Shown in pieces: positions 1 through 3,842 of a stretch of DNA of 45,782 bases. Origin of the DNA: Flavobacteriales bacterium (GTDB lineage: Bacteria; Bacteroidota; Bacteroidia; CAIKAF01). Location: the NCBI GenBank assembly GCA_025055575.1, contig JANWWP010000040.1, positions 1 through 45,782 of the forward strand, written 5' to 3'. The stretch's first letter is position 1, and each line of letters starts with the position of its first letter. A model generated the notes under the pieces. That model saw nothing but the letters and a program-made list of their open reading frames with translations. It ran no database searches and was not told the origin of the DNA. A program made the position numbers and the translations under genes.

Positions 1-118
1 GGGCTGTACCATCCGTGTTGATACCCACGTTCTGGGCCATCCCAACAGGAAGTGCGAAGAATAGATGCAATCCCAGAAGATAAAAGCACAAAATTTTTTT
101 TAAGATATTATTTAGCAT
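1..118 (-). CDS. Secreted surface protein, 5' end only (runs off left edge)
   Basis: The complement starts with ATG at 118 and stays open to the window edge (39 codons). The product opens with a lysine-containing n-region, a hydrophobic stretch (about residues 9-25) and an Ala-Gln site, so a Sec signal peptide is likely. The residues just after it, AQNVGIN followed by a Thr-Asp-Gly turn, match the GQNVGIN segment that follows the signal peptide of the large protein encoded at 603-3842. In Bacteroidota this start is typical of secreted tail-fibre-domain or repeat proteins. The gene is therefore probably a neighbour paralogue of the larger one on the same strand, but only its first 39 codons are visible and the rest of its architecture is unknown. 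Confidence 0.7.
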   Translation of the reverse strand, partial: MLNNILKKILCFYLLGLHLFFALPVGMAQNVGINTDGTA

Positions 119-602
119 AATTATTGAAATTCCGATGCAAAGTTCGGCAAGACTTAGGCCATTTTTTTGATGATAGAAAGAAATCGTGAAGATTTAAGTA
201 TTAATAACCAACAAAAAAGACACTTAAAAAACCATATTAAACTTTTTAACACTCCCCATTGGGTATCCAGAGAGTGCAAAAAATCCTACTTGTTAGTACA
301 GATTCCCTAATCAGAAATCAAAATCCCCCTAACAACTAACTGACTTGGGCTGAGACTCCCAGCAATACATTTTTTTTCACAAAGAATCACAAAGAAGAAA
401 ATCAATTCTTAACAATACAATTCGAGAGAAATTTTCTTACCAAAATATATTCCTTAACGTTTCGTTCCTGATAATAAAAGAAAGTAAGAATATATCCATT
501 GCAAAGCGAGTAAGTTCTTTTTAATATTATTTATTTTTTTAACAATCTTTAAATCCCACGCCAAAATGTCAATAAACTGACAAAAATTTTAGTTACAGTC
601 CA
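119..602. other. AT-rich non-coding gap between two surface-protein genes
   Basis: About 480 bp with long A and T runs and no convincing reading frame on either strand. It lies downstream of the large repeat protein and upstream of the left-edge gene, so it should hold the terminator of the first and the promoter of the second. I see no exact TAnnTTTG box in the leftward orientation. A tandem pair of the 10-mer TCACAAAGAA sits at 377-396. Nothing else stands out. Confidence 0.55.
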
Positions 603-3600
603 TCATTTCTTAGTCGGGGAAAGTGTTGTTGTGTGCCGCGTCACCTGAATTGTTTCGTTCAAATGAAAGTCGGTTTTCTGGTTTTCCAGAGCTGTCAGTC
701 GTTCGGACAGCCATTCCAATTTTTGGGCAAGGATATTATTTTTCTCTACAAGGATTTTATTCTGTTGCTCCAGATTTTGAATTCTTCTGTAAAGCCCTTG
801 AATCCCCAGCAAGGCCACGCCGGCCACATCCGAAGCTGCCAAAGAGGAAGCCGCATCCGGGCCATCCAGAACGCCTGTTCCAAACATTGTGTAGAAATCT
901 TCTGCATAAGGCCCGATGTGATATTCCTGAGATCCTTTGTAAAACCAGCCTTCCACAGGCAATTGCTGCAATTTGTTGAGGACCTCCATGGGATCCAATT
1001 GTTGGAACCTGTCTTTTTTGGAACGGGAGGACGTGTTGGTCCAAACCCCGCCGCCCGAGAGATAGGCTCCATTGCCATTCCAACTGGCATCTCCTACATG
1101 AATAGGGTAATCCCCGTCCTGTCGGTTGATAACCAGAAAACCTGATGGGCTGCCTGAGCCCGATCCGAAGAAATACACGCGATGGGTTTCTGGATTGGCC
1201 GGGGAAACGTTTTGACCAAAAACCAAAGTAAAAGCCGCATTGGCGATGTTGCCGTAGCCTCCGGCCACGGCACTGTGAGAACCGTAGGCATAATTGTTTT
1301 CACCCCCGCTCACCGAACTGCCCCAGCCCTCAGCAACGTTGTTGTATCCCCCACTCACTGTTCCATAATTGCCAATGACGCTGTTTTGCTGCCCCCCTCC
1401 GACGGCCGCATAACTGGCTTCAATAGTATTGCTTTCGCCCCCGGCAATAATGGAACCCGAGAAATCAGCCGAATTAATAATTGTGTTGTTCAGCCCCCCG
1501 CCAATGGTGGCATATTGGCCCTCCGCCGTGTTATTTTCTCCTCCCAAGATTGCAGAATAATTCCCGTTGGTATTATTATTTCCTCCGCCCACCAGCACAG
1601 AGCCAATCCCCACCACAAAGTTTGAAATACCACCCCCGGAAAAGCCATGGTCCCCATCCACAAAATTGTTTTGACCTCCCGTCAGGACGCCGTAGGCGCC
1701 ATTTACTTGATTATTCTGACCTCCCCCAAGGAGGCCATATGGCGCCCATCCCGAAATAGAATTACTGATGCCACCTACCACCGTGGAACCATAAGGATTG
1801 GCTGTATTGCTATATCCCCCCGCCACTGTGGAATATTCACCATAAGCCGTGTTATAGCCTCCGCCACCCACAAACGTTGAAGATCCATAAGCGTTGTTAA
1901 AGCTTCCTCCTGCCACAACGGCGTAGGCGTTGTAAGTGGCATTGGAGGCCCCGCCACCAACCACGCTGGTGTTTCCGAAAGCTTGGTTTGAAACACCCCC
2001 CGATATGGTGGCAGTGGTGGCATGTACTTGATTTTGGAAGCCTCCACCAACTACGCTGGCCGAACCTGAAGCGGCATTATTATACCCTCCACCTACCACA
2101 CTATAATTAGCTAATGCTGTGTTGTAAACCCCACCGCCTATGAAACTGGCCTGATTTTGAGCTTCATTCACTGAGCCGCCTCCAATAAATGAGTAAGTTC
2201 CTCCAGCCTGGTTAAAATTCCCCCCACCCACGATGCTTCCGTAACCAGAGACGCTGTTGTACTGCCCTCCTCCTATACTCCCTGCACTGGTCATGACCGT
2301 GTTGTTTCGTCCGCCTGAGACCACAGACCAGTTTCCGTTGACCGTGTTTTCACTGCCGCCCGTAATTACGGCCTGGAGTCCTTGTGCATTGTTATTATAA
2401 CCCGCCCCCACGAAGGACATCAGGCCCTGGGAAAGATTTAAAGTGCCTCCCCCCACCACACTGCCGCCAGGTCCATAAGCGCCATTGTAAGTGCCCCCGC
2501 CTACAAAAGCATAGGGCGTAGCCGCCACATTTCCTCCACCCCCCGCAATGGTTGTCATGTAATCCGAACATTCATTTTGCTGTCCCCCTCCTATTGCGGA
2601 GAGAAACCCGCTGGCCACGTTTTGTTCCCCGCCTGACACTGTGCTTGTGTTGCCAAAAGCTTGGTTGTAGTTACCGCCGCCCACAACAGTAAAATCGGAA
2701 CCTGCTGTGTTGTTGTTACCCCCCGCCACAATGGCACCATATCCCAGAGCTTGGTTTTGTGTCCCTCCGGAAACAACGGCTGCGTTGCCCAAGGCTGAAT
2801 TATTACTTCCTCCGGCCACAACGCCCACCCATCCGTTGACCATATTTTGAGAACCACCGCAAAGCACCGCATTTATTCCAGCGGGTGATATCTGATTCAT
2901 GAATCCCCCTCCGATGAAACTTCCATCACCGGAAGCTTCATTTAAAAACCCGGTAAAAACACCTCCAGCATACCCCGTCACCTCATTTTGATATCCACCG
3001 GCTATGGTAGCGTACTCCTGGAAAGCTTTGTTGCCATCCCCGCCCAAGATTGAACACCATTTGCCTTTGGTGGTATTCACCATGCCGCCGGCAATCACGC
3101 TCCAGCCCCCCAGGGAGTCGATCAAGTGGCCACCGCCTCCGCCCACAAAAGAGTTTTTGGGGTAAACAATGCTGCCCAACCCCCCAACTACTACACTCCA
3201 GGGGCCCGTAACAATATTATTCTGGCCGCTAAGAATAGCCGAATAATCCCCCGATGCCACCATATCTGCACTATCCCTTAACGCCTGAAAATCCACGGCG
3301 AATGGCCCGCGCAAATGACCACCCCCATCCCTTTGAATGCTTCCGTTCGTATTGAATTTGAAAGCGATTTGATTATGAACCCTGACAACCAATGGCAGGC
3401 TGTCTATGGTTCCCACAAAGTTTGAATCGGGGTCCGTACCAGAATTACCTTTTAATAACCAACCTTGATCTCCACTTGCCGGACTGGATAAGGGGACCCA
3501 TAAACTGCCATCCCAATAATAAAACCCCGGCGCCACATCCGCAGAATTGTTTGTGTTATATACCAAAAGGCCCGTGGCGCAACAAGACGAAACCGTGGCC

Positions 3601-3842
3601 ATGTCCGAAGTGGAGGTAAGACTGACGCGGGGCAGAAGAAAACCTTTATCAGATGCTTTAACGTCCAGAATGGCGCTAGGATCCGGCGCCTCCCCCGTCA
3701 CGTTGATACCCACATTTTGTCCCTGCAGAACAATTGAATTTGTGCAAATTAATACCCCTATGAGAACAATTCTTTGATTTCTAAAAATATTTTTAAGACA
3801 GGTTTTTCTTAGAACCCGAATGGAGAAAGATTCTTTATTCAT
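603..3842 (-). CDS. Secreted YadA-head-like repeat protein with C-terminal peptidase S74 (tail-fibre chaperone) domain
   Basis: The product has 1079 residues. Residues 1-41 hold a long basic n-region and a hydrophobic core ending at LQGQ, a probable Sec signal. Residues 42-120 are the module common in Bacteroidota secreted fibres (GFLLPR, GLLVYNT and FYYWDGSLWVPL motifs). From about residue 200 to 875 there are about 44 copies of a 15-residue unit of the form S-V-V-x-G-G-x-x-N-x-A-x-G-x-x, the left-handed parallel beta-roll pattern of YadA-type adhesin heads. Residues about 945-1030 resemble the peptidase S74 intramolecular chaperone (SSRSKKD start, LPVEGW, YHIGPYAEDF), followed by a leucine/asparagine-rich coiled coil of about 35 residues and a short tail. 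There is no YadA membrane anchor and no recognisable T9SS C-terminal domain. It probably forms a trimeric surface fibre, but the export route is not evident. The start is the ATG after an AT-rich leader. Confidence 0.85.
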   Translation of the reverse strand: MNKESFSIRVLRKTCLKNIFRNQRIVLIGVLICTNSIVLQGQNVGINVTGEAPDPSAILDVKASDKGFLLPRVSLTSTSDMATVSSCCATGLLVYNTNNSADVAPGFYYWDGSLWVPLSSPASGDQGWLLKGNSGTDPDSNFVGTIDSLPLVVRVHNQIAFKFNTNGSIQRDGGGHLRGPFAVDFQALRDSADMVASGDYSAILSGQNNIVTGPWSVVVGGLGSIVYPKNSFVGGGGGHLIDSLGGWSVIAGGMVNTTKGKWCSILGGDGNKAFQEYATIAGGYQNEVTGYAGGVFTGFLNEASGDGSFIGGGFMNQISPAGINAVLCGGSQNMVNGWVGVVAGGSNNSALGNAAVVSGGTQNQALGYGAIVAGGNNNTAGSDFTVVGGGNYNQAFGNTSTVSGGEQNVASGFLSAIGGGQQNECSDYMTTIAGGGGNVAATPYAFVGGGTYNGAYGPGGSVVGGGTLNLSQGLMSFVGAGYNNNAQGLQAVITGGSENTVNGNWSVVSGGRNNTVMTSAGSIGGGQYNSVSGYGSIVGGGNFNQAGGTYSFIGGGSVNEAQNQASFIGGGVYNTALANYSVVGGGYNNAASGSASVVGGGFQNQVHATTATISGGVSNQAFGNTSVVGGGASNATYNAYAVVAGGSFNNAYGSSTFVGGGGYNTAYGEYSTVAGGYSNTANPYGSTVVGGISNSISGWAPYGLLGGGQNNQVNGAYGVLTGGQNNFVDGDHGFSGGGISNFVVGIGSVLVGGGNNNTNGNYSAILGGENNTAEGQYATIGGGLNNTIINSADFSGSIIAGGESNTIEASYAAVGGGQQNSVIGNYGTVSGGYNNVAEGWGSSVSGGENNYAYGSHSAVAGGYGNIANAAFTLVFGQNVSPANPETHRVYFFGSGSGSPSGFLVINRQDGDYPIHVGDASWNGNGAYLSGGGVWTNTSSRSKKDRFQQLDPMEVLNKLQQLPVEGWFYKGSQEYHIGPYAEDFYTMFGTGVLDGPDAASSLAASDVAGVALLGIQGLYRRIQNLEQQNKILVEKNNILAQKLEWLSERLTALENQKTDFHLNETIQVTRHTTTLSPTKK
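1210..3245 (-). repeat. About 44 in-frame ~45-bp repeats encoding YadA-head units
   Basis: Reading the complement, units of about 45 bp each encode 15 residues with a conserved Gly-Gly (usually followed by an Asn three residues later). Most units are exactly 15 residues; a few are 16-19 because of short insertions (for example around SPAGIN, WAPY and NSADFSG). The DNA copies are diverged, not identical, and all keep frame, so selection acts on the protein fold. Arrays like this can change unit number by recombination or slipped pairing. Confidence 0.85.

Follow-up and report, generated by a model that had tools for sequence, protein, structure and literature searches.

A predicted Sec-exported fibre protein with UspA1-like head repeats and a C-terminal S74 chaperone domain in a Flavobacteriales bacterium, compared with the mosaic adhesive trimers of Bdellovibrio

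The closest studied fibres to the protein described here are those of the mosaic adhesive trimer (MAT) family of Bdellovibrio bacteriovorus, which are displayed on the surface of the predator cell and aid its grip on prey (PMC10769870). A MAT protein consists of a signal peptide, a constant domain, a fibre and a tip that is either a self-cleaving S74 domain or something else, e.g., a C-type-lectin domain; in all 21 MATs a conserved beta-rich domain of ~130 aa directly follows the signal peptide, and the mutation S782A blocks self-cleavage of Bd3182 (PMC10769870). The surface partner bound by the MAT N-terminus was left open by the authors of that study (PMC10769870). We analyzed a protein with a similar order of parts that is encoded in a window of 45,782 nucleotides (positions 1 to 45,782 of contig JANWWP010000040.1 in the Flavobacteriales assembly GCA_025055575.1), and that an initial annotation had described as YadA-head repeats joined to a peptidase S74 chaperone. 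Its parts are listed in Table 1.

Table 1. Parts of the fibre gene and the start of the next gene (window coordinates)
Feature	Residues	Coordinates	Strand	Basis
Whole ORF, 1079-aa surface-fibre protein, ATG start	1-1079	603..3842	-	ORF list of the window; own-genome paralogue G000:C59; relatives
Sec signal peptide; predicted SPI cut G41|Q42	1-41	3720..3842	-	Hydropathy, conserved Gln
Constant N-terminal module QNVGIN...GFYYWDGSLW	42-120	3483..3719	-	Own-genome copies, genomes of the order
Spacer GNSGTDP..NFVGTID..PL..R	121-197	3252..3482	-	41 matching sequences among the relatives collected, including IMG/VR sequence L077
Head/shaft, 44 UspA1/YadA-head-like 15-aa units	198-868	1239..3251	-	Periodicity, UspA1 match, solenoid model
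Neck VFGQNVSP...HRVYFFGSG...WTNT	869-937	1032..1238	-	Conserved with paralogue and L029; low confidence in structure model
Predicted self-cleavage nucleophile	Ser938	1029..1031	-	Aligned S74 domains; MYRF S578 equivalent
Catalytic Lys (predicted)	Lys943	1014..1016	-	Aligned S74 domains; MYRF K583 equivalent
S74/ICA chaperone-protease domain (predicted)	938-1002	837..1031	-	PF13884 score, profile match, fold match
C-terminal coiled coil	1003-1065	648..836	-	Single long helix in AlphaFold2 model
Next gene start: signal peptide and QNVGINTDGTA, cut by contig end		1..118	-	Translation of window 1-123

The C-terminal S74 domain was identified largely through its relatives. Pfam S74 does not match the full-length protein, and the isolated C-terminus falls 0.3 bit short of the PF13884 cut-off (21.7 bits against 22, E=2.5e-4), a borderline match to the domain that the initial annotation proposed; the own-genome paralogue on contig C59 (G000:C59), which is 57% identical over 116 aa of C-terminus and 65% identical over a 201-aa stretch, passes at 22.5 bits, and L123, the closest relative of the same architecture, scores 24.5 bits. 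All 12 members of our alignment A3 match PF13884, and a PDB search with the A3 profile retrieves the ICA domain of MYRF (7dc3) as well as tail fibres of phages. We consider this transitive evidence to be firm support for the S74 assignment. An AlphaFold2 monomer model of residues 866-1066, for which viral relatives were included in the alignment, has high confidence onward from roughly residue 936; the PDB structures that match it best are the three ICA chains of MYRF (probability 1.00 for each, E from 6.5e-3), and chaperone chains of phages T5 and K1F come next with low probability. The coiled coil that had been proposed to follow the S74 domain is present in this model as one long helix, mostly with pLDDT above 95.

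The SSRSKKD segment, previously suggested as a possible self-cleavage site, contains a plausible catalytic pair: Ser938 and Lys943 are five residues apart, which is the spacing of S578 and K583, the published self-cleavage pair of MYRF. All 159 aligned S74 domains, some of which are near-identical, have Lys at the position of Lys943; at that of Ser938, 156 have Ser and the other three, all viral rows, have Cys. The Ser/Lys pair is kept in all 73 rows from the class. In the viral S74 domains L042, L051, L054, L104 and L107, reading by eye showed Cys where the catalytic Ser would be.

The count of about 44 head units also holds: 43 units score against a repeat profile derived from this array, and a further, degenerate unit lies at about residues 290-304; most units are spaced 15 aa apart. 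At lag 15 the head has an autocorrelation of 0.346, and 1000 shuffles reach no more than 0.165 at any lag. In sequence the array resembles the UspA1 head of known structure, 3pr7 (E=1.3e-21; head residues 500-606 and 640-806), whereas Pfam YadA_head PF05658 has no match anywhere in the protein. A model of six units, calculated from an alignment with other units of the same array and the heads of L077 and L029, is a solenoid with a mean pLDDT of 97. Foldseek gave nothing significant with this short model (UspA1 ranked 7th, E=2.1), so the probable trimeric beta-roll fold is assigned by sequence similarity.

How might such a protein leave the cell? The initial annotation saw no known export or anchor domain, which is correct for an anchor or sorting domain and not wholly so for the N-terminus, which has the look of a plain Sec-type signal (top hydropathy window beginning at residue 25). 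Gln occupies the predicted mature start in nine of nine aligned N-terminal modules (this protein and eight related ones), in agreement with the Bacteroidetes Q-rule (PMC5837995). The signal peptide contains no lipobox, and a lipoprotein was rejected on that ground. The YadA anchor profile of Pfam has no match in the protein and none over its cut-off anywhere in the genome, type A and B T9SS sorting domains are not matched in the protein, and no outer-membrane export signal was found in it; the earlier statements that it lacks the YadA barrel and a T9SS domain are thus borne out.

The module that follows the signal peptide (residues 42-120) matches nothing in Pfam or the PDB. A search with a query that took in part of the spacer located it seven times in its own genome at E<=1e-10, and 14 of the 16 genomes from the order have it; the truncated gene at the contig start encodes another copy. 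In its own genome it precedes S74 and a UspA1-like shaft in the window and on C59, and glycine-rich or unassigned bodies on C44 and C79; in relatives of another genus a near-constant N-terminal half is joined to a C-terminal Lcl_C half in ~15 tandem genes. The module thus heads a set of proteins that are constant at the N-terminus and variable at the distal end. In this array (L192, G009:C21:105500-118500) the ~15 genes, ~250-320 aa each, share a near-identical signal, constant module and 'NLATPVNPADAVTKDYVDNQI' segment, and it is in the C-terminal Lcl_C domain that they differ; the 'NLATPVNPADAVTKDYVDNQI' segment resembles phage tail fibres in PHROGs. The array looks like a variable surface-protein array, and similar runs of the module are present in G006, G008 and G010. 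A diversity-generating retroelement was considered as the source of the G009 Lcl_C variation and rejected, as no reverse transcriptase match was found in G009 or G010. Copies of the fibre gene lie at or near contig ends of its own genome (G000), some of them cut (C38 start, which is window 1-118, C45 end, C77 end, C48 start and near the start of C79), so the assembly was probably broken by repeats and shows only part of the repertoire.

Proteins that end in S74 are common in these bacteria: S74 tails are present in 127 of the 395 genomes sampled from the class, and alignment A3 finds 222 viral relatives. Head-like units together with S74 are also present in L123, L152, L157 (16 units) and L164 (38 units), and UspA1-like repeats with S74 in Herpetosiphon (Chloroflexota), on a haloarchaeal plasmid of Halalkaliarchaeum and in IMG/VR locus L077. 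The view that adhesin-head and phage-fibre features form an unusual mixture in this gene is therefore overstated; given this spread across phyla and an archaeon, and the MAT precedent (PMC10769870), the combination belongs to a kind that recurs and has been described before. One relative, L029 (JACSSC010000032.1), is recorded as Candidatus Competibacteraceae and is the same sequence as G001:C13, from the family of the source genome, so its record name is probably wrong. Tails beyond S74 vary in a few relatives: L143 has a long, unassigned one, that of L125 resembles the tail of L151 (below) by eye and has no profile match, and L129 and L033 (Haur_5099) have transmembrane-like ones. MYRF, an animal transcription factor, has this order of S74 and transmembrane-like tail too.

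A shared order of parts, and the pairing of one constant end with varied distal ends, lead us to propose, with a probability of roughly 0.7, that this protein is exported by Sec, is chaperoned by its S74 domain and forms a trimeric surface fibre that functions in the manner of the S74 MATs. The Sec signal would take it out of the cytoplasm, and the C-terminal coiled coil and ICA domain would assemble three chains and start the folding of the repeat shaft. A correctly folded trimer would then cut itself before Ser938 and release a 142-residue ICA fragment. One end of the mature fibre, presumably the one at the cell surface, would be the constant module; the other would consist of the repeat shaft and neck, with the shaft as the distal and probably adhesive part. 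A broader and more tentative idea, for which the odds are somewhat against us, is that Bacteroidota have a MAT-like fibre system of their own, with an undescribed surface-docking module, exchangeable distal parts (S74-chaperoned beta-roll fibres and tandem Lcl_C arrays) and outer-membrane export free of a T9SS sorting domain.

Could the protein instead be secreted by T9SS, its sorting signal either diverged beyond recognition or provided by a partner? The genome does have a T9SS (SprA at 2357.7 bits and 75 Por_Secre_tail matches), and one S74 relative, L151 (G321:C2), has a type A sorting domain after S74 that is over both the Pfam and NCBIfam cut-offs. The predicted cut in L151 falls between the fibre and this sorting domain, and a fibre cut before its secretion would have lost the signal, which suggests that L151 folds and cuts itself once it has been translocated. 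Our protein, however, matches no sorting domain and ends in a coiled coil and a short tail, and in 70 of 73 S74 sequences (taken from the window, from its paralogues and from loci of the class) no more than 150 residues follow the catalytic Ser and no export domain is added; we therefore judge T9SS cargo to be unlikely. It is also rather improbable that the same fibre is made with S74 acting as a trimer-forming chaperone that does not cut, the coiled coil being kept as the distal tip. Cleavage is a prediction here, and the transmembrane-like tails of L033 (Herpetosiphon) and L129 could anchor a fibre only if it stayed uncut, yet MYRF has the same order and cuts; against this idea, virtually all relatives, and every row from the class, retain the Ser/Lys pair.

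The remaining candidates fare worse than a self-cutting, MAT-like surface fibre. A fibre gene of a prophage or an extracellular contractile injection system (eCIS) that is now chromosomal might be imagined from the occurrence of S74 genes in eCIS operons (PMC8213781) and from the match of L123 to the phage tail-fibre family phrog_1980. It is very improbable for a protein that has a Sec signal peptide and a constant module common to many cellular paralogues; its neighbours in the window look like housekeeping genes by eye (e.g., MurA, a TrkH-like transporter and Lon, names read from the sequences), no phage genes were noticed by eye among them, and no tail-sheath gene was found in the genome, so we discarded such an origin on account of the absent sheath gene and the neighbours. 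The only Pfam match to the repeats, LbR_Ice_bind, raises the thought of an ice-binding beta-roll protein, but at 27.1 bits it is below the 30-bit cut-off and UspA1 matches far better, which leaves little chance for that function. A type Vc trimeric autotransporter whose barrel was missed would account for the UspA1-like head; it has next to no chance of being correct, since the barrel was looked for and not found, with no YadA anchor over cut-off in the genome, and the C-terminus is S74 and coiled coil, and it was rejected.

If S74-terminated proteins are self-processing surface fibres, then, being present in roughly one in three of the genomes sampled from the class, they make up a large set of adhesins, and how they cross the outer membrane with neither a barrel nor a sorting domain is a concrete question that they pose. 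The open literature that we searched contained no experimental paper on such proteins in Bacteroidota.

Each known system shares some of these parts. The UspA1/YadA trimeric autotransporter heads resemble ours in repeat sequence and in their 15-residue GG..N units, but those proteins have a membrane barrel where this one has S74. The phage K1F endosialidase, the phage T5 L-shaped tail fibre and MYRF have the ICA fold, the Ser/Lys spacing and the coiled coil after it, and differ in that the present protein is cellular, Sec-exported and has a UspA1-like shaft before S74. Haur_5099 of Herpetosiphon aurantiacus (pHAU01) and WP_259532799.1 of Halalkaliarchaeum, annotated as hypothetical and as tail fiber domain-containing protein, respectively, are alike in an export signal (by eye), UspA1-like repeats and S74 over the Pfam cut-off; iterated search did not detect the Bacteroidota constant module in either, and Haur_5099 differs also in its transmembrane-like end. 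The MATs belong to another phylum and to a predator, whereas the source organism has no known predation, and the solved Bd3182 tip has a trimeric beta-helix in contrast to the UspA1/YadA-like beta-roll shaft predicted here. The S74 subgroup of MATs (Bd3182) nevertheless has the signal peptide, constant N-terminal domain, long fibre and C-terminal S74 with its Ser/Lys motif, within a repertoire that keeps one end constant and varies the distal one, and it is in this order of parts that the two are alike.
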